Of a stretch of 32,356 bases of DNA, positions 6,803-16,397 are shown piece after piece. The first letter of the stretch is position 1. Every line of letters starts with the position of its first letter. Under the pieces are notes generated by a model. The model was not told the DNA's origin. It saw nothing but the letters and a program-made list of their open reading frames with translations, and did not search any database. Made by a program: the position numbers and the translations under genes. This DNA comes from a virus: positions 1-32,356 of IMG/VR virus record IMGVR_UViG_3300001419_000025. One strand, written 5' to 3'.

Positions 6803-6993
6803 TGTATTACGCCAAGCCAGGGGATGTTTTTTGCAGCGGTAAAGACTGCATGGATAAATACATGGTTCCAGGCTGCACCTGTCCACCAGATAGCGTGATA
6901 AAGCATATGGGCAAGATTGGCTGTAAACCGCAGTCTCCAAGAAAAAAGATTTGTTTTAAAGACAGTAATGCCAGACTCAATAATGGGGGATGA
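6802..6993 (+). CDS. Cys-rich small protein (63 aa), unknown
   Basis: 63 residues with six cysteines (CSGKDC, PGCTCPP, IGC, KKIC), which could bind zinc. The start overlaps the stop of the preceding gene. Its last codons contain the GGGGGAT that serves as ribosome-binding site for the helicase at 6995. Not recognised; moderate confidence it is translated. Confidence 0.5.
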   Translation: MYYAKPGDVFCSGKDCMDKYMVPGCTCPPDSVIKHMGKIGCKPQSPRKKICFKDSNARLNNGG

Positions 6994-6994
6994 T

Positions 6995-7726
6995 ATGACA
7001 ATAAATATTATCAAAGGCAAGGACTATGACGAGGCAATAAAATTATTTCAGCAGCACTGTGAATATATTATTCAAGATGAAAAAGAAAGACATATATTTT
7101 TAAATTTTTTAGGTTTTATTATTGCTAGACCTGATAAACGAGTTAACTGGGCGGTCTTGCTACAAGGGGATGAGGGTAATGGTAAATCCTTCTTTGAAGT
7201 AATGATGAGAGAGATACTTGGGGGAAATAATATGAAATCTGTCAGTAATACCGTTGTTAAGACAGATTTTAATGATTGGGCTTATGGTTCACGATTTAAC
7301 GTATTATCTGAATTAAAAATAGCTGGAGAGAGTAGATATAACATCTATAATAATATTAAAGCTTATGTTACAGATGAGGAGTATGGACTAAATCGTAAAG
7401 GGTTAGGTTATCGACTAATACCCAATACTGCTAGTTATATGATAACCACTAATTATAAAGATTCTGCACCTATCACAGATAAGGATAGAAGATTATTTGT
7501 TATCTTTACTAATAATGATAAAAAATCAGATGCGTATTATGATAAGTTATTTTCAATATGTAAAGCTAATCCATATAGCATCAAACAATATTTAACTGAA
7601 TATCCTACTCATTCAGAATTTAATCCTTATGGTAAAGCAATTAAAACTGAACATCACAAGTTAATGTCCAGTTTTAATACAGATGCAATAGAAATAGTGA
7701 TTAACGAAGCTATTAATTTTGTATGA
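6995..7726 (+). CDS. SF3 / D5-type phage helicase, helicase domain only
   Basis: 243 residues from ATG 6995, with GGGGGA just upstream; in-frame ATGs at 6983 and 6917 are less likely. Walker A is GDEGNGKS (58-65), the acidic Walker B position lies in FNVLSEL (Glu106), TTN at 151-153 resembles sensor 1, and DRRLF (164-168) gives the arginine finger. This is the DUF5906/D5-like ATPase that normally forms the C-terminal part of large phage primase-helicases (roughly 600-800 aa). Here the N-terminal primase part is missing, so the gene is either a 5'-truncated relic or a stand-alone helicase. The ORF itself is intact. Confidence 0.8.
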   Translation: MTINIIKGKDYDEAIKLFQQHCEYIIQDEKERHIFLNFLGFIIARPDKRVNWAVLLQGDEGNGKSFFEVMMREILGGNNMKSVSNTVVKTDFNDWAYGSRFNVLSELKIAGESRYNIYNNIKAYVTDEEYGLNRKGLGYRLIPNTASYMITTNYKDSAPITDKDRRLFVIFTNNDKKSDAYYDKLFSICKANPYSIKQYLTEYPTHSEFNPYGKAIKTEHHKLMSSFNTDAIEIVINEAINFV

Positions 7727-7799: not shown

Positions 7800-8171
7800 A
7801 TGGGTAAACGAGGGCCAAAAATTTTTAACCCAGATTGGAAGCAGGTTGATAATATGTGCATGATACATTGTACTGGAGAGGAAATTGCTGCCATTCTCGG
7901 TGTTGATTACAAGACTTTAGAAAGAGCGTGTAAACGTGATCATAAGATAAAATTTGGGGAGTATATCAAGCAAAAGAGCGCTGGCGGCAAGATGAGCCTT
8001 AGAAGAAGGCAATATTCCACTGCTATGGATGGCAATGTGTCGATGCTTATTTGGCTTGGTAAAAACTGGCTTGATCAGACAGATAAAACGGAAATAGATC
8101 AATCAGTCGAAGTTAAAAAACCTGTACAAATATTAATAAATCCTGTCGATGGAAGAAAAGACCGAGATTGA
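7800..8171 (+). CDS. terS: Terminase small subunit
   Basis: 123 residues. A helix-turn-helix is visible in CTGEEIAAILGVDYKTLERA (24-43), followed by the family-typical KMSLRRRQYSTAMDGNVSML and then IWLGKNWLDQTD. These elements match phage small terminases, which recognise the packaging site and load the large subunit on DNA. The gene lies directly upstream of, and overlaps by 23 bases, the large subunit gene, which confirms the assignment. The ribosome-binding site is weak (ACAGG). Confidence 0.85.
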   Translation: MGKRGPKIFNPDWKQVDNMCMIHCTGEEIAAILGVDYKTLERACKRDHKIKFGEYIKQKSAGGKMSLRRRQYSTAMDGNVSMLIWLGKNWLDQTDKTEIDQSVEVKKPVQILINPVDGRKDRD

Positions 8172-10308
8172 TTTCCCTGCTAAAATATCTGATATTTTAG
8201 TAATACCAAGGGGAGATGTTCAATACAGAGCTGCTTTCGGTGGTAGGGGCTCAGGAAAGTCTTTCTCTTTCGCTTTAATGGCAGCTGTTCATGGATACGC
8301 TGAACCTATCAGAATTTTATGTGTTAGAGAGTTCCAGACTTCAATCAAAGAATCTTTCCATGCTGAATTAAAAGCAGCAATTGACTCTTATGATTTTCTC
8401 AAAGATCATTATAATGTTGGAGTTGACTATTTAAGAGGTTCTAATGGCACTGAATTTATTTTTAGAGGCCTACATAGAAATACATCAGCAGTTAAGTCTT
8501 TAGCAAATATTGATTTAACTATTATTGAAGAAGCAGAAGATGTACCAGAGCAAGCATGGTTAGATTTAGAAGCAACTATTTTCAGACAACCTAAATCAGA
8601 ATGCTGGGTGATATGGAACCCTAGAACAAAAGAGTCACCAGTTGATAAACGATTCAGGATTAAACCACCAAAAGATTTAGCTATAGCCGAAGTTAATTGG
8701 TACGACAATCCATTTTTTCCTACAGGGTTAGAAAAACTACGAAAAAGAGAGCAGGAAAGATTAGATCCTAATACTTATAGCCATATCTGGGAAGGAGCGT
8801 ACTTAGAAAACTCTAATGCTCAAGTCCTACATGGTAAAGTTGAAATAAAAGAATTTAAATCAAGTGATCATTGGGATGGACCCTACTATGGAATGGACTT
8901 CGGTTTTTCTCAAGACCCCACAACAGTGGTCAGATGTTGGGTATTTAATGATAATCTTTATATTGATTATGATGCAGGTAAAGTTGGATTAGAATTAGAT
9001 GATACAACAGAATTTTTTATTAAGAAAATCCCAGATATAGTCAATCACACTATCAGAGCAGATTCAGCAAGACCAGAATCTATAAGCCATTTAAATAATA
9101 AAGGCAAGTTAAATGTCAGGCCAGTTAAAAAGTGGGCTGGCAGTGTTGAAGACGGTATTTCACATTTGCGATCATATAAAAAAATATTTATCCATCCCAG
9201 GTGCGAAGAAACGATAAAAGAAACTCGATTATATTCTTATAAAGTTGACCGGCTAACTGGTGATATACTTCCCCAAATTATAGATGCTAACAATCATTGT
9301 TTTAGTGGGGACACTGAAGTAATTGTTAATGACAAATTAATGCGTTTTGATGAGATACCAAAAACTGGATTTATACGAGGTTATGACGGGAGCAATAAGT
9401 TTTACTACAATGGTGGGGTAGTTAGATGCGATAAGTTACTTGATTTAATACTTGATGATGATACAATAATAAGCGTGACCGAAGACCATGAATTCCTGAC
9501 TAAAGATGGTCAATGGGTTCAAGCAAAGGATTTAAAAGGGCAATTATTATGCAAATCAATGTTATTTCAGGGACAAAACAGGAATTTAATGGAAGAATAT
9601 ACACAAAACATGAAGGAGAAAAATACTACTCATTTGGGACTAATTACGGATGCGACAGAATACATAGAAAAGTATGGGAATATCATCACGGAGAAATACC
9701 AGAAGGATTCCATATTCATCACCGAGATCATAATGCGGATAATAATGAGATTGAAAATCTTATTATACTCACAGCTGGCGAACATATCGCATATCATACA
9801 AAATTATATCATGCAAACAATCCGGACGCTGCAAGAATTAATCTTGCTAAGAATCAAGACAAATGCAGAGAGTGGCATAAATCAAATGATGGCCACGAAT
9901 GGCATAAGCAACATTATCAAAAACACAAAGACAAATTATTTGCCAGGGAATACAGAAATTGCAAGCAATGCAGAGAAACATTTTATGCCCAAGTCGATAA
10001 AACCAATGTATTTTGCTCAAACAAATGTAAATCCAAATGGAGAAGGGATTCAGGAGTCGATGACATTAAAAAAACATGTGAGTTCTGTGGCGAAATATTT
10101 AAATCAAATAAATACGCCAAAAAAATATATTGCGGTAAAGGATGTTCAGCAAAAGGGAATGCAAGAAAAAGAAACTTATTGCGTGACGGTTCCCGGTGAC
10201 GGGTGTTTTTCTCTTGCCAATGGGGTGGTTGTTTCAAACTGTATTGATGCATTACGCTATTCTCTGGAGCCGATTATAAGAAATAGCACTGATGTATTTG
10301 TAGGATAA
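8149..10308 (+). CDS. terL: Terminase large subunit precursor with intein
   Basis: 719 codons; removal of the intein (residues 384-697) leaves a 405-residue terminase of the PBSX/Terminase_3 type. ATPase motifs: Walker A GGRGSGKS (31-38) and Walker B LTIIEEAE (123-130). Nuclease motifs: YYGMDFGFSQDPT with Asp250, ADSARPE with Asp305, and the C-terminal DANNH joined after splicing to CIDALRY. The protein would pump DNA into proheads and cut it. Inteins commonly settle in such catalytic motifs because precise loss is hard to select against. The start overlaps terS; another gene (HNH, 9549-10199) is read from the intein part in the -1 frame. Confidence 0.93.
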   Translation: MEEKTEIDFPAKISDILVIPRGDVQYRAAFGGRGSGKSFSFALMAAVHGYAEPIRILCVREFQTSIKESFHAELKAAIDSYDFLKDHYNVGVDYLRGSNGTEFIFRGLHRNTSAVKSLANIDLTIIEEAEDVPEQAWLDLEATIFRQPKSECWVIWNPRTKESPVDKRFRIKPPKDLAIAEVNWYDNPFFPTGLEKLRKREQERLDPNTYSHIWEGAYLENSNAQVLHGKVEIKEFKSSDHWDGPYYGMDFGFSQDPTTVVRCWVFNDNLYIDYDAGKVGLELDDTTEFFIKKIPDIVNHTIRADSARPESISHLNNKGKLNVRPVKKWAGSVEDGISHLRSYKKIFIHPRCEETIKETRLYSYKVDRLTGDILPQIIDANNHCFSGDTEVIVNDKLMRFDEIPKTGFIRGYDGSNKFYYNGGVVRCDKLLDLILDDDTIISVTEDHEFLTKDGQWVQAKDLKGQLLCKSMLFQGQNRNLMEEYTQNMKEKNTTHLGLITDATEYIEKYGNIITEKYQKDSIFITEIIMRIIMRLKILLYSQLANISHIIQNYIMQTIRTLQELILLRIKTNAESGINQMMATNGISNIIKNTKTNYLPGNTEIASNAEKHFMPKSIKPMYFAQTNVNPNGEGIQESMTLKKHVSSVAKYLNQINTPKKYIAVKDVQQKGMQEKETYCVTVPGDGCFSLANGVVVSNCIDALRYSLEPIIRNSTDVFVG
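9531..9537 (+). promoter_or_regulatory. Possible -1 frameshift heptamer leading into the HNH frame
   Basis: In the intein frame the codons GAT TTA AAA present T TTA AAA, a valid X XXY YYZ slippery heptamer. A -1 slip would continue as AGG GCA ATT ATT ATG, which is the HNH frame. A clear downstream pseudoknot was not identified, and the DNA is AT-rich, so chance is possible. The nearby AAAAGGG offers internal initiation as an alternative. Confidence 0.35.
9549..10199 (+). CDS. HNH homing endonuclease nested out of frame inside the intein
   Basis: 216 residues from ATG 9549, with AAAAGGG 8 bases upstream; an in-frame ATG at 9513 is possible but lacks such a site. An HNH_3-type nuclease domain is complete at 37-71: RIHRKVWEYHHGEIPEG, then the HIHHRDHNADNNEIENL core with His57/His58 and Asn70. 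Two zinc-finger modules follow: C138/C141 with C156/C160, and C177/C180 with C195/C199. The reading frame is -1 relative to the terminase/intein frame, and both stay open for all 651 bases. It would probably cut intein-less terL alleles, making the intein mobile. It ends inside intein block F. Confidence 0.88.
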   Translation: MQINVISGTKQEFNGRIYTKHEGEKYYSFGTNYGCDRIHRKVWEYHHGEIPEGFHIHHRDHNADNNEIENLIILTAGEHIAYHTKLYHANNPDAARINLAKNQDKCREWHKSNDGHEWHKQHYQKHKDKLFAREYRNCKQCRETFYAQVDKTNVFCSNKCKSKWRRDSGVDDIKKTCEFCGEIFKSNKYAKKIYCGKGCSAKGNARKRNLLRDGSR

Positions 10309-10316
10309 TCATTTCA

Positions 10317-10325
10317 TGCTATAAT
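10317..10325 (+). promoter_or_regulatory. Extended -10 promoter before the tail-fibre genes
   Basis: TGCTATAAT fits the TGnTATAAT extended -10 element; the upstream -35 region (near 10298) is weak. It lies between the terL stop and the next ATG. Confidence 0.4.
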
Positions 10326-10343
10326 TGACAAGAGGTTAATTAT

Positions 10344-10511
10344 ATGCTCATGAATTTAGAAACACCTGAAAATAAAGAACAAGCCAATGAAACAGCTGAG
10401 TCTTTATGGGCTAGTATGTACGCTGAATCATTTAAGTTAAATGGTAGTGACTCAAAAGCTACTAAAGACGCTGATAAAGCAGTAAAGAAATTTAGAGAGA
10501 GGTTCAAATAA
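10344..10511 (+). CDS. Small phage protein (55 aa), unknown
   Basis: 55 residues, acidic first half and basic helical C-terminus (DADKAVKKFRERFK). AGAGG stands 8 bases upstream of ATG 10344; a second ATG at 10350 is possible. The stop overlaps the next start (TAATG), which supports its reality. Small proteins of this shape commonly follow terL in phages, but I cannot name a function. Confidence 0.65.
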   Translation: MLMNLETPENKEQANETAESLWASMYAESFKLNGSDSKATKDADKAVKKFRERFK

Positions 10512-10855
10512 TGGGATGCCCACGAATTGCTAGTTTCCCTGATTGTAAAGACCCTGATAGTAACCTGCCCTATTCATTTAATTGGGCAGATTGGATAGCC
10601 GCAGAGGGTACATCTTTAGTTGATAACGTAGCTAATAGAGAAGTTATTGTCAGTGTTACAGATGATTTTGATGCTAGTGAAGATACTTCACCAATAGTCG
10701 TAGGTACGATAAGTGTTGATGTACCTAACTCTATTGTTTATGTTTGGTTAAGCGGTGGAACAGCTGGATTGAAATATAACATTACATGTAGGATAACAAC
10801 CGCTAATGGGATTATTGAGGATAAAACCGCAGTTTTAACCTGTAGCGAGAAATAA
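10511..10855 (+). CDS. Putative virion structural protein with Ig-like fold (114 aa)
   Basis: Starts near YSFNWADWIAAEG and contains VYVWLSGGTAGLKYNIT followed by a strand-rich end. This 'W.DWL..EGd...' to 'vWLSGGtaG..Y.vt' pattern is frequent in short phage proteins linked to fibres or connectors, often described as fibre-tail adaptors. The protein is mostly beta-strand. Precise position in the virion is not shown by the sequence. It begins the tail-fibre cassette and is coupled by TAATG to the preceding gene. Confidence 0.65.
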   Translation: MGCPRIASFPDCKDPDSNLPYSFNWADWIAAEGTSLVDNVANREVIVSVTDDFDASEDTSPIVVGTISVDVPNSIVYVWLSGGTAGLKYNITCRITTANGIIEDKTAVLTCSEK

Positions 10856-10856
10856 A

Positions 10857-11645
10857 ATGAATATTGATGCATTAAACAGTGATGCCCTAAATGTAATAAA
10901 TAATGTTCCAGTTAATATTATTACAGCAACTAATAACTTAGTTATAACTGAACAGCAAGCTGCTATTGCAAACCCATCAGTTATAGGTAGTAGTACAGCA
11001 AATTTAGTTCTTGTTGAACAATCAGCAGCTGTGAGTATTGATGTTGCTATAGCTGCAAACACAGGGAGTTTAAACGTAACAGGTAGTCAAGCATCAGTTG
11101 TTGTACTTCAAGGGGTATCAACTGCAACTACTAGTTTAGTTATTACAGAACAGAGTGCAGTAGTAAAGAGAAATGTTCATGTAGCAGCAACAACGGGTAC
11201 TCTATTACTAAGTGGTCAACAAGCCTTTGTTGAAACAAATGGGGTAATTATTACCAATACATCTAACCTGAGTATCGCTGGACAAAATTCTACTGTTAGA
11301 GTTAATAAACATATAATTGGTTCTACAGGTTCATTGAGCATTGTAGAGTTTAGTGCTGAAATTATAACAAACACTAATATCAATGCTACTACAAGTAACC
11401 TCAGCGTTAATGGGCAAAACACAGATGTAAGCCTAATACAAGGTATAACAACAGTACCGACTAGTATTACTTTAACTGCTAACACATCGTCTGTGGTTAT
11501 AAGTCTAAGTATTAACGCAGCTACCAGGCAATTATTTATTGCTGAGCAGCAAGCAGTTATTCAAGGAGGTAACAATACACCAACGATTTTAGCGTATCGT
11601 AATGTTGCGGTTACTGCTAAAGATAGAAATGTAGATGTTATGTAG
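10857..11645 (+). CDS. Repeat-rich beta-structured virion/adhesin protein (262 aa)
   Basis: Almost the entire protein consists of about ten degenerate repeats of 21-23 residues with the form T-x-x-L-x-(I/V)-x-x-x-Q-x-(A/T)-x-V plus a variable linker, for example TNNLVITEQQAAIAN and TGSLNVTGSQASVVV. The alternating hydrophobic pattern and lack of charged residues suggest a beta-solenoid or stacked-strand fibre. The DNA repeats have diverged, so repeat number is probably stable. It lies among tail-fibre genes, so a shaft or adhesin role is a reasonable inference, unproved. Confidence 0.65.
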   Translation: MNIDALNSDALNVINNVPVNIITATNNLVITEQQAAIANPSVIGSSTANLVLVEQSAAVSIDVAIAANTGSLNVTGSQASVVVLQGVSTATTSLVITEQSAVVKRNVHVAATTGTLLLSGQQAFVETNGVIITNTSNLSIAGQNSTVRVNKHIIGSTGSLSIVEFSAEIITNTNINATTSNLSVNGQNTDVSLIQGITTVPTSITLTANTSSVVISLSINAATRQLFIAEQQAVIQGGNNTPTILAYRNVAVTAKDRNVDVM

Positions 11646-12129: not shown

Positions 12130-14523
12130 ATGTATAAAGCAGGTGATTGGGTTAAAGAGGATACAGCAACTGCCGGTACAGGTACGGTAACGCTTACTCA
12201 AAAAACAGGGTTTAGTCGCTTCTCCGATGTCTTCACTGTTGGGGATATTGTTTATTACACTATTCAAGACGGTGACAATAGAGAAACAGGTATTGGTACT
12301 GTCTCCGCTGGAAATACGTTAGCAAGAACGACTATTCAAGCAACACTGGTATCAGGAGTATATGACGATACTTCCCCTACAGCTATAACTTTATCTGGCA
12401 ACGCTACAGTTTACGCAACAGCTACAGCGAGTATGATAAATGGCAAGTTACCTAAGTTCGATGGAGAGCCTAATGGGTTCCCTGATAGAACAGAGTTTAC
12501 TATTGGGTGGTCAGATGTTACTAGGACATTATCTTTAACGCCTGTAGGAGCATCTTTTCAAGCCTGGTCAAATGGTAATTTGTACGTCTATACATCAGCT
12601 GAGTCTATAGCTATTTCAGATGTTGAAGGCAGTCATTATATCTATTTTGATTCCAATGGGGTTATTCAAGAAATTACTAGCTTTAACCCTGATATTATCA
12701 ATACATGGTGTTTTATAGCTTATGTCTATTGGGATGCTACTAATAAAGAGGCTATTACTGGAGGGGTAACGAATGAGACTCATAGTTCAGCTATGCCTCC
12801 ATCTGTACATAGTTATTTACATAATGTAATGCAAACACAATATATTGATGGGTTAACTATTGGTGGTATAACAGCAGATGGTAATGGTAGCTTAGATAGC
12901 CATGCTCAGTTCACTATGACTACAGGTACAATATATGATGAAGATATCCCTCACACTATAGCAGCTAAAACTAATTTAACAGATACTTTTCATGTAATTT
13001 ATAAGGATGGTGCTGCTGGTAATTGGAGGCAGGGAGCTGCATCTAGTTTCCCAGTTCTTACAACTGGAACAGGTCGTGCTGCTTATAACCAATGGACTGG
13101 GACAACATGGCAATTAACAGAAGTATCTAATAATGATTTTGTATTAGCCCATGTTGCTGCTTTAGGTAACGATGGAGGCCCAGCTGATTTTGTTGTCATT
13201 ATGGGTGAAAACGCATATTCAACATTAAATGTAGCTAGAACAGGAGCTACAACTGAATTAGCGGATTTAAACACAACAGGCATACCCTCAACAGAATGGG
13301 TTTTTGTTGCTACTATAATCCTTCAAACTAGTAACACCTATGTCAATACGGTTAAATCTGCGATTGTTAGTACAGAAAATGGAAATGATTATGTAGATTG
13401 GAGGCTTGCTTCTTCTAGAGATTTAATTTCTTCAAGCACTTCACCAGCTGACCATAATTCTTTAGCAGGATTACAAGGGGGTGGAGCCAATGAGTACTAC
13501 CATTTAACTGCTGCTGAAGGAACAAAGATAGACAATATTACTGTTACAAACCCTGTTAATCTGGATAATATAACTAACACTGCAACAGCTACTTTAACTA
13601 ATAAAACTATTGATGATTTAACTAATTTAGTTCACGCTAATGCTGTCCACAAGAAAGTAGAAAATGTTACTGCTTCAACAATGCCAGCAGGTACTGCTGT
13701 TGCATTTAGTGATTATGATATAGTTAATTCAAGAACAGAAGTTGTCTTAGCTGATAACACAACTGGCGTATCTATAGGGTTAGTTGATAACGGTGGTATT
13801 CTTGCTGGAGCAGAAGGCACTATTATTGTCAACGGTGTTGTAACGGATGTTGACACAAATGCTTGGACTGAAGGTACTATTTTGTATGTTTCAACAGGTG
13901 GTGCTTTAACTGCAACGGAACCAACAACTGGATTCCAACAGCCAATAGCTTTTGTTATTAAGCAGCATTTAACTGAAGGTATCCTACAAGTTAATGCTTC
14001 ATACCCTAAACAAGATGCTAGTGATGTAAGATTTACTGCTGCTGGTGATATAGTAGCTACAGATGTACAGGCTGCTATAGTTGAGTTAGACAATGAGAAA
14101 GTCGCTTTAACCGAAGCCAACCAAACTATTACAGGTAATTTAAATATTACAGGTAGTTTAGGCATGCAGGACAACCTATTAACAAGGGCTATCTTAAAAG
14201 ACACAGCAGAAGAACTGCAAGCACATGGAAACATGGGAGCAACAGAAACTTTTGACTGTACTACAGCTAATGTACACACAGCAACAGCAGACGCAACCGT
14301 AACAATTACTTTTAGTAACCCACCAGCCACAGGCGATGCAGGATACCTTGTTATCTTCTTAACTAACGGTGGTTCTCAGACGATTACCTGGCCCACTTCA
14401 GTAGACTGGCCAGCAGGTACAGCACCTACGTTAACTACAGCGGGGTTAGATATTCTAGTGTTTGTTACTTATGATGCTGGAACTACATGGCTCGCCAAGA
14501 CACCAGAGTTGGATGTGAAATAA
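12130..14523 (+). CDS. Tail fibre / receptor-binding protein (797 aa)
   Basis: Large, Thr/Ala/Gly/Asn-rich, strand-dominated protein. The N-terminal 110 residues (MYKAGDWVKE...) look like a virion-attachment domain. Around residues 440-465 is the hallmark HNSLAGLQGGGANEYYHLTA of many tail fibres. A later section (about 515-625) resembles fibre modules with 'gtaVafsdyd...v..Adn....siGlvd.gi..g..G.iiv.GvvtdvdT'. The last 100 residues form a compact beta domain ending in FVTYDAGTTWLAKTPELD. It likely contacts the host surface. Stop and next start overlap (TAATG). Confidence 0.8.
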   Translation: MYKAGDWVKEDTATAGTGTVTLTQKTGFSRFSDVFTVGDIVYYTIQDGDNRETGIGTVSAGNTLARTTIQATLVSGVYDDTSPTAITLSGNATVYATATASMINGKLPKFDGEPNGFPDRTEFTIGWSDVTRTLSLTPVGASFQAWSNGNLYVYTSAESIAISDVEGSHYIYFDSNGVIQEITSFNPDIINTWCFIAYVYWDATNKEAITGGVTNETHSSAMPPSVHSYLHNVMQTQYIDGLTIGGITADGNGSLDSHAQFTMTTGTIYDEDIPHTIAAKTNLTDTFHVIYKDGAAGNWRQGAASSFPVLTTGTGRAAYNQWTGTTWQLTEVSNNDFVLAHVAALGNDGGPADFVVIMGENAYSTLNVARTGATTELADLNTTGIPSTEWVFVATIILQTSNTYVNTVKSAIVSTENGNDYVDWRLASSRDLISSSTSPADHNSLAGLQGGGANEYYHLTAAEGTKIDNITVTNPVNLDNITNTATATLTNKTIDDLTNLVHANAVHKKVENVTASTMPAGTAVAFSDYDIVNSRTEVVLADNTTGVSIGLVDNGGILAGAEGTIIVNGVVTDVDTNAWTEGTILYVSTGGALTATEPTTGFQQPIAFVIKQHLTEGILQVNASYPKQDASDVRFTAAGDIVATDVQAAIVELDNEKVALTEANQTITGNLNITGSLGMQDNLLTRAILKDTAEELQAHGNMGATETFDCTTANVHTATADATVTITFSNPPATGDAGYLVIFLTNGGSQTITWPTSVDWPAGTAPTLTTAGLDILVFVTYDAGTTWLAKTPELDVK

Positions 14524-16397
14524 TGAGTAACTTAGCCAAACATTTAATGCAAGGTGCGACAACAAGCAGCACTACTGCCATAGTAGAAGATAACTTCAGT
14601 ACTTATCTTTATGAAGGCAACAGCAGTACCCAGACGATTACTAACAATATTGATTTAGCTACTGATGGGGGTATGGTTTGGATAAAAGATAGGGACACAG
14701 CATATAATCATATCTTATCAGATACAGAAAGAGGTGTAACTAATAAATTATATAGCAATACTACAGATACCGAGTCTACTTATTCAGGTGCAATTACCGG
14801 ATTTAATACCGATGGTTTTACTATTGGAGATTATACATTAATCAATGGCAGTGGTGACGACTTCGTATCCTGGACATTCAAAAAAGCATCTAACTTCTTT
14901 GATGTTCAAACAGCAACACTAGGCACAGGTAATACAGTTGTATCATTCCCTGATTTAACAATACTAGGTATGGTTGCTGTAAAACGCACAGATTCAACAG
15001 GCTCATGGTATGTATGGCATAGGAGTGCAACAAGTGGCGATTTATTATACTTAGAGCAAACAGCAGCAGAAACATTAGATGGTTCTATAACAGTATCAGG
15101 TACTGATGTAACTCTGGTTGATGGCACGTTAGCTGATGGTGATTATGTGGTTTATGCGTGGAGTCACGACACCTCAGAAGATGGGATGATACAGTGTGGG
15201 AGTTATACTGGTAATGGTCTTGCTGATGGGCCAGAGGTTAATCTGGGATGGGAGCCTCAGTGGGTGTTGATTAAATCTGCTACATCAATTATTGAATGGC
15301 AACTGGTCGATAGTATGCGCGGTATAAATACTTCCGACACGATTATTTTAGAACCAGATACAACGAGTGCTGAAAAAAATACTGGCAACTCAAGGATACA
15401 ACTTACACCAACTGGATTTAAATTGCTTCTTAACACAAATGAGATGAATTCCCCCAGTGACACCTACATATACATAGCAATCCGCAGACCCATGGCGACC
15501 CCCAGTATATCAAGCGAGGTTTTTGCTATAGCAACTAGAGATGGAACAACCCTGCCAAGTCATACCACGACATTTCCTGTTGATTTTCTCATTCAGTCTT
15601 ACACAACCTCATCGAATGTTGATGTTTCTGCCAGATTGATTCAAGGTAATCTCTTAAAAGCAAATAACACAAATGCTGAATCTGCTGATTCACAATATCA
15701 ATTTGATTATATGGATGGTGCGATAGAGAGAACAGGTATTAATACTGCTGATTATGCTTGGATGTGGAAACGAGCCACAGGGTTCTTTGATGTGGTCTGT
15801 TATACAGGTACAGGAGTCGCACACGCTGAAGATCATCAATTAGGTGTAGTGCCTGAGATGATTTGGATTAAGTGCAGAAATGATATATTTAACTGGGTGG
15901 TTTATCACAAAGATACTGGGAATAACTATTTCAATATACTTAATTTACCAAATGCGAAAATATCTACTGCTAACATCTGGAATAGCACATCTCCTACTGA
16001 TTCACAATTCACGATTGGTACAACGGATGAAGTTAATAAATTATCCAGTGACTTCATAGCCTTCCTCTTCGCAACCCTAGCAGGAATATCTAAAGTAGGC
16101 TCATACACAGGCAACGGCACAACTCAAACGATAAACTGCGGATTCTCAGCGGGGAGTAAGTTTGTACTCATCAAGCGCACAGATAGTACAAGCAACTGGA
16201 ATATGTTTGATAGCACCAGAGGAATTATAGCGGGCAATAGTCCACGCTTAGAACTCAATACCACAGATGTAGAAGATACAGGTGATGATGGACTTGACCC
16301 TGATAACAGCGGGTTTTCGGTAAATTATATAGCTACCAATGATGATGATGTGAACGTATCAGGAGCAACATATATTTATTATGCGATTAGTGCATAA
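14523..16397 (+). CDS. Tail-fibre-like protein with repeated DUF7483-type modules (624 aa)
   Basis: The start is ATG 14523, overlapping the preceding stop, rather than an in-frame ATG at 14487. Several related modules are visible, each with a glycine-aromatic start such as SYTGNG, a 'WVLIK/MVWIKDR' strand, an 'N....DtmRGi.....l.p' loop and a Thr/Asn-rich end: near residues 46-115, 233-328, 425-520 and 528-624. This is typical of phage proteins annotated as DUF7483, thought to be fibre or decoration parts with a lectin-like beta fold. Function in host binding is inferred. Confidence 0.7.
   Translation: MSNLAKHLMQGATTSSTTAIVEDNFSTYLYEGNSSTQTITNNIDLATDGGMVWIKDRDTAYNHILSDTERGVTNKLYSNTTDTESTYSGAITGFNTDGFTIGDYTLINGSGDDFVSWTFKKASNFFDVQTATLGTGNTVVSFPDLTILGMVAVKRTDSTGSWYVWHRSATSGDLLYLEQTAAETLDGSITVSGTDVTLVDGTLADGDYVVYAWSHDTSEDGMIQCGSYTGNGLADGPEVNLGWEPQWVLIKSATSIIEWQLVDSMRGINTSDTIILEPDTTSAEKNTGNSRIQLTPTGFKLLLNTNEMNSPSDTYIYIAIRRPMATPSISSEVFAIATRDGTTLPSHTTTFPVDFLIQSYTTSSNVDVSARLIQGNLLKANNTNAESADSQYQFDYMDGAIERTGINTADYAWMWKRATGFFDVVCYTGTGVAHAEDHQLGVVPEMIWIKCRNDIFNWVVYHKDTGNNYFNILNLPNAKISTANIWNSTSPTDSQFTIGTTDEVNKLSSDFIAFLFATLAGISKVGSYTGNGTTQTINCGFSAGSKFVLIKRTDSTSNWNMFDSTRGIIAGNSPRLELNTTDVEDTGDDGLDPDNSGFSVNYIATNDDDVNVSGATYIYYAISA

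Follow-up and report, generated by a model that had tools for sequence, protein, structure and literature searches.

Architecture of the terL locus

The window, meaning the whole stretch of DNA analysed, is a virus record of 32,356 bases. Its large terminase gene, terL, runs through 719 codons without interruption (8149-10308) and contains an intein, within which a putative HNH homing-endonuclease gene is written in the -1 frame. The features of the locus are as follows.

8149-10308, + strand: terL, large terminase ORF including the intein, 719 aa (Pfam Terminase_3, 2.2e-26; Terminase_3C, 2e-15)
9298-10239, + strand: intein, 314 aa, in the TerL nuclease domain at DANNH|CIDALRY (Cys1, TEDH block B, SN|C end; PF14890, TIGR01443)
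9298-9561, + strand: N-terminal splicing domain of the intein, residues 1-88 (AlphaFold pLDDT 79-95 in 10-residue blocks)
9534-9540, + strand: putative Shine-Dalgarno sequence AAAAGGG, within the intein coding sequence, 8 nt before the HNH ATG (sequence; duplex energy)
9549-10199, + strand: putative overprinted HNH homing-endonuclease gene, 216 aa, -1 frame relative to terL (PF13392, 1.2e-14; phrog_15471, 1.8e-40; AlphaFold; fold match)
9562-10125, + strand: intein-frame linker, the out-of-frame reading of the HNH gene (AlphaFold; open in 55 of 55 non-redundant relatives)
9660-9785, + strand: HNH_3 domain, HNH residues 38-79 (Pfam; H57, H58, N66, N70 and H79 invariant in alignments of 32 and 38 sequences)
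9960-10028, + strand: Cys4 zinc-finger-like module 1, HNH residues 138-160 (C138, C141, C156 and C160 invariant in the 32- and 38-sequence alignments)
10077-10145, + strand: Cys4 zinc-finger-like module 2, HNH residues 177-199 (C177, C180 and C195 nearly invariant in the alignment)
10126-10239, + strand: C-terminal splicing domain of the intein, residues 277-314, blocks F and G (AlphaFold; TIGR01443)

The intein is bounded by Cys1 at 9298 and by Asn314, which ends at 10239 and is followed by Cys+1. Its match to the Pfam Intein_splicing model (PF14890, 5e-7) falls under the curated cut-off of that model, and its match to the NCBIfam model of the intein C-terminus (TIGR01443) exceeds the cut-off there. 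The closest solved splicing domain by profile is the gp41-1 intein (6qaz, E 3.3e-21 against the intein family profile), and Foldseek assigns the model to the Hint fold (probability 1.00 to DnaE, gp41-1 and other inteins). The motifs expected of a class 1 (Hint) intein are present: T61 and H64 of block B (TxxH) are invariant, the terminal Asn precedes Cys in the window (N314|C) and Cys or Ser in the delimited relatives (40 and 4, respectively), and Cys1, itself part of the pattern used to delimit these relatives, is present in the window intein and in all of them. The penultimate residue is Ser, not His, as in about one third of the delimited relatives, which counts against the explanation favoured below. 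Structurally, the strands of the C-terminal domain begin at residue 277, with a pLDDT of 92-95 from residue 291, and the linker is predicted to be mostly unstructured (pLDDT <50 at intein residues 94-131 and 192-272).

The borders of the intein are exact, because an intein-less homologue, the TerL of Vibrio phage 1.178.O, shows the uninterrupted site: it reads DAYNHYIDAIRY there, giving the empty site DAYNH|YIDAIRY. The position after the insertion point is Tyr in the empty allele and the splicing-required Cys in the intein allele. Phage BP10 was dropped as an empty-site comparison, its terL not being comparable at that site. Two other architectures do not describe the locus. A fractured gene would consist of two ORFs around a nuclease, and terL is a single continuous ORF. 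A group I intron was rejected, given that window positions 8000-10600 have no Rfam match at E up to 1, that the host frame is open and that protein splicing motifs are present.

The HNH frame is complete at both ends, from the ATG at 9549 to the TGA at 10197-10199, and lies between intein blocks B and F. Unlike the nuclease of a classical large intein, it occupies the -1 frame rather than the intein frame. The protein combines an HNH domain with putative DNA-binding modules, the second of which is missing from the HNH of Rhodobacteraceae phage LS06-2018-MD07. Its AlphaFold model is confident (pLDDT 94.7), and the PDB structure closest to it in fold is I-HmuI, a homing endonuclease, in a match of modest significance (E 0.016, probability 0.87); searching PDB sequences with the HNH profile returned nothing. 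Across the class, a median of 18 residues separates the HNH stop from the intein end that follows it. The stop often falls among the block F codons that encode VY(N/D)L, in which TAT AAC and TAT GAT contain a -1-frame TAA or TGA. Both elements had been proposed in an earlier note on this DNA, and both are borne out: the 314-residue intein in one frame by its motifs, PF14890, TIGR01443 and the Hint fold, and the full HNH gene with two zinc-finger modules by its HNH_3 match and Cys4 modules.

Elsewhere in the window, an ORF with DUF5906 (6917-7726) lies immediately upstream of the terminase genes, an ORF at 10857-11645 carries a repeated motif like TSNLxITEQxAxV with no Pfam match, and a large ORF at 14487-16397 contains DUF7483 (2.7e-89).

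Recurrence among phages

A tblastn search of named phages with the HNH protein recovered the same layout in Tetrasphaera phage TJE1, Acinetobacter phage Highwayman and Rhodobacteraceae phage LS06-2018-MD07. At each of these loci the annotation covers terL only, and the HNH gene is unannotated. The window intein frame used as a tblastn query against named phages gave one weak match, because the intein core is not conserved as a protein. In IMG/VR, scans with a single protein (the window HNH or the intein) matched only the same virus, so alignments were required; these brought out dozens of contigs with the overprinted arrangement. One further record, IMGVR_UViG_3300005512_000066, carries the element and is 100% identical to the window over 7.9 kb; it is therefore the same virus and adds no independent support.

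Two surveys define the class. The first, based on HNH-alignment scans, found ∼58 loci where a longer terL ORF fully encloses the HNH gene, with the same frame used each time. Homology revealed both intein halves, N and C, flanking the HNH gene in 57 of 60 flagged loci, and all ten divergent host ORFs that were checked are terminases. The second chose loci by the intein C-half and the terL C-extein only (n=79): 76 carry an HNH gene, in every case in the -1 frame and with an open intein frame; the other three (L131, L134 and L151) are mini-inteins that occupy this terL site but lack the HNH; and an in-frame nuclease was found at none of the 79, as is also the case among the first-survey relatives. 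Four of the 76 loci are truncated by contig ends, and a few have partial HNH matches. Since a few contigs occur in both surveys and the C-halves of the second were taken from overprinted members, the fraction 76/79 applies to this intein subfamily, not to all terL inteins. Comparing nuclease-in-frame, nuclease-free and overprinted terL inteins, as the earlier note had advised, thus yields 0, 3 and 76 loci, and its central observation, a continuous intein ORF with a separate overprinted HNH gene, extends to many independent relatives with a signature of selection in both frames.

Two loci stand apart. L161 has two separate HNH-family matches (223-447 and 1957-2493) in one terL region, possibly two elements. 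L095, on a contig assigned to an archaeon (Thermoplasmatales archaeon MAG, CP070724.1), is an overprinted terL intein, which suggests either that the element spans a wide range of hosts or that a provirus is involved.

Evolution and probable mobility

The same HNH family also occurs outside the overprinted arrangement. At ∼20 further loci it lies between the halves of a fractured terL intein, with the N-half and the C-half on separate ORFs; these natural split-intein candidates include L006 (Brochothrix phage BL3, 727-2607), L013, L023, L032, L050, L054, L066, L091, L093, L094, L099 and L101. In five other loci (L007, Pseudomonas phage PAE1, 2265-2882; L036; L069; L074; L080) a free-standing family member immediately follows an intact terL with an unbroken insertion motif, possibly a case of homing without splicing. 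In an HNH tree built by a quick method and containing many weak forks, overprinted members fall on both sides of the midpoint root, and well-supported branches force at least five changes of state. The branch of the window HNH is long, and its nearest neighbour is only a free-standing relative; this placement counts against the explanation favoured below.

Between loci, identity is 39% for the HNH proteins, 32% for the intein halves and 19% for the TerL hosts; with TerL controlled for, the distances of HNH and intein remain correlated (partial r 0.39). These sequence comparisons are consistent with HNH and intein travelling as one unit between unrelated terL genes. Some relatives (L147, L148, L190, L194 and L182) retain the intein with the HNH gene deleted or partial. 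Such loss had been named in advance as a possible refutation; it does occur, in a minority of loci, and fits what a homing cycle predicts. The further suggestion that the locus is an intermediate toward a classical intein finds no support: the overprinted arrangement is old, widespread and dominant at this terL site, no in-frame relative was found, and fractured split inteins, mini-inteins and free-standing HNH genes are its better-supported neighbours in evolution.

The association with terL admits a different function. Some phage HNH proteins encoded beside terminase genes assist packaging, and the free-standing members of this family adjoin terL, so that the HNH protein could be a packaging accessory of the terminase rather than a homing enzyme. 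However, the family is of the HNH_3 type with Cys4 modules and an I-HmuI-like fold match, the gene lies inside an intein and is lost from some relatives that retain terL and the intein, and conservation of both HNH and intein exceeds that of the host TerL. A packaging role is accordingly unlikely, and homing is the favoured function.

HNH start signals and selection in two reading frames

Upstream of the HNH start, pairing with the Shine-Dalgarno sequence is stronger than expected by chance. Class starts have a mean energy of -4.8 kcal/mol, against -2.7 kcal/mol for a null of random starts upstream within the same ORFs; the window duplex has -4.4 kcal/mol, with medians of -4.6 for the class and -2.9 for the null. 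The ribosome-binding site of the window, earlier rated good, is thus better described as moderate (AAAAGGG, 8 nt spacing), and those of some relatives are weak, which counts against the explanation favoured below.

Alternatively, programmed -1 frameshifting might produce the HNH protein as a fusion with the intein. In favour of this, the HNH gene occupies the -1 frame at every overprinted locus, and a correctly phased TTTAAAA heptamer occurs in the window at 9531-9537. Most relatives, however, have no slippery heptamer near the start, and the heptamers are not conserved; at many loci the HNH frame is open for just 0-30 nt ahead of the start, being closed by a stop further upstream; and the strength of the Shine-Dalgarno pairing exceeds the null. 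The frame preference has another explanation, stop density: HNH genes generally contain ∼5 stops in the intein-equivalent frame and ∼22 in the other, and overprinting always uses the same frame because that frame has few stops. Frameshifting is very unlikely, and internal initiation is preferred.

When the synonymous codons of each HNH gene were shuffled, with protein and codon usage unchanged, the window intein frame, which has 0 stops, acquired a mean of 5.8, and 0 of 400 shuffles reached 0. Over 55 non-redundant loci, 0 stops were observed against 140.4 expected. The unused third frame of these loci shows 21.7 stops per locus (21.5 expected), and non-overprinted HNH relatives show no stop avoidance (5.10 observed, 5.01 expected). 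Because the overprinted set of the first survey was partly defined by openness of the intein frame, the second survey is the fair stop test. Among close relatives, substitutions fall at HNH codon positions 1, 2 and 3 in proportions of 31, 24 and 46%, and close pairs are 65% identical in the HNH frame versus 48% in the other. Stop avoidance and third-position substitutions together indicate selection on the HNH protein, with codon choice keeping the intein frame free of stops. The HNH is therefore the constrained protein, and the intein core is held open while its residues matter little.

These data also bear on the possibility that the HNH gene is a relic in decay and that the intein frame merely happens to be open. 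The partial or deleted genes described above (L147/148, L182, L190/194) are what such decay would leave, but the catalytic residues and cysteines of the HNH are invariant, substitutions are biased to third positions, and stops are absent where 140 are expected for the class and where none of 400 window shuffles avoids them. The relic reading is refuted for the class and very improbable overall. A sequencing or assembly frameshift, raised at the outset as a possible refutation, can be dismissed with near certainty: nothing was found in its favour, the layout is shared by dozens of contigs and independent genomes including the three named phages, and the HNH gene has both an intact start and an intact stop.

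A probable mobile intein with a dual-coded core

The locus is very probably a mobile terminase intein with a dual-coded core, in which the ORF splices and the HNH initiates internally and drives homing. Architecture, conservation, frame consistency, stop avoidance and position-specific selection are observed across the class; from the sequence evidence we infer splicing, internal initiation, cleavage and homing. The whole terL ORF would be translated as a single precursor, and the splicing domains on either side of the linker would associate into one fold, cut the intein out and ligate the TerL exteins at DANNH|CIDALRY; splicing would be in cis, because the window intein is one continuous ORF. 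On the same mRNA, ribosomes would start internally at the ATG at 9549, after the Shine-Dalgarno-like AAAAGGG, and translate the -1 frame into a free HNH/zinc-finger nuclease. This enzyme would cut intein-less terL at the insertion site, and repair would copy intein and HNH gene jointly. The intein-frame core would then be a mere linker that must lack stops, with HNH synonymous codons chosen accordingly.

The overprinted intein is probably a third, previously unrecognised architecture of terminase inteins, dominant at its site, old, with two selected frames and linked to split inteins. Its age is argued from its span across a diverse HNH tree. If this is correct, the link to split inteins would consist of the loss or gain of stops in the linker frame, suggesting a simple route among mini-inteins, fractured split inteins and nuclease-bearing inteins. 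Splicing would be decoupled from homing at no cost in extra DNA, since the nuclease gene uses the linker codons, and the two functions could be tuned separately. The element is also a striking case of overlapping genes in which two-frame selection can be measured, and it exposes an annotation blind spot, with an unannotated HNH gene under terL in three public genomes.

Comparison with known systems

Fractured genes, which Dassa et al. reportedly described in 2009, combine split inteins with a nuclease gene between the halves. The likeness is close, as a separate nuclease gene lies between intein N and C halves and ∼20 terL cases involve the same HNH family, whereas the window intein is one continuous ORF. 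The gp41-1 intein, naturally split and located in a helicase, differs in the same respect; we know of no overprinted HNH for inteins of the gp41-1 type. Group I introns with I-HmuI-type HNH genes likewise place the gene in a self-removing element and express it separately, as is inferred here; in contrast to them, the window has no Rfam intron match, an open host frame and protein splicing motifs.

Classical large inteins with an in-frame endonuclease, among them the mycobacteriophage TerL inteins (PMC5050341), share the Hint splicing domain and a nuclease between blocks B and F, and in the mycobacteriophage case also the TerL host. Unlike theirs, the window nuclease is out of frame and outside the precursor, and the mycobacteriophage inteins sit in the ATPase domain, whereas the window insertion is at the nuclease-domain DNH|xDAxRY motif. 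No description of an overprinted nuclease within a continuous intein was found in the literature covered, outside of which lies a preprint on non-canonical phage inteins (doi 10.1101/2025.01.02.630785).

The only out-of-frame precedent found in the literature is the ShiLan work and its citations. The ShiLan domain (2025; PMC11855218) is an out-of-frame HNH insertion in a phage gene. As in the window, an HNH with zinc-finger modules occupies another frame of a host gene that stays open, its occurrence is sporadic and apparently mobile, and I-HmuI is the best fold match. ShiLan has neither intein nor intron and is predicted to stay in the methylase, whereas the window HNH is enclosed by a complete, putatively splicing intein, has terL as its host and is preceded by a Shine-Dalgarno-like site.
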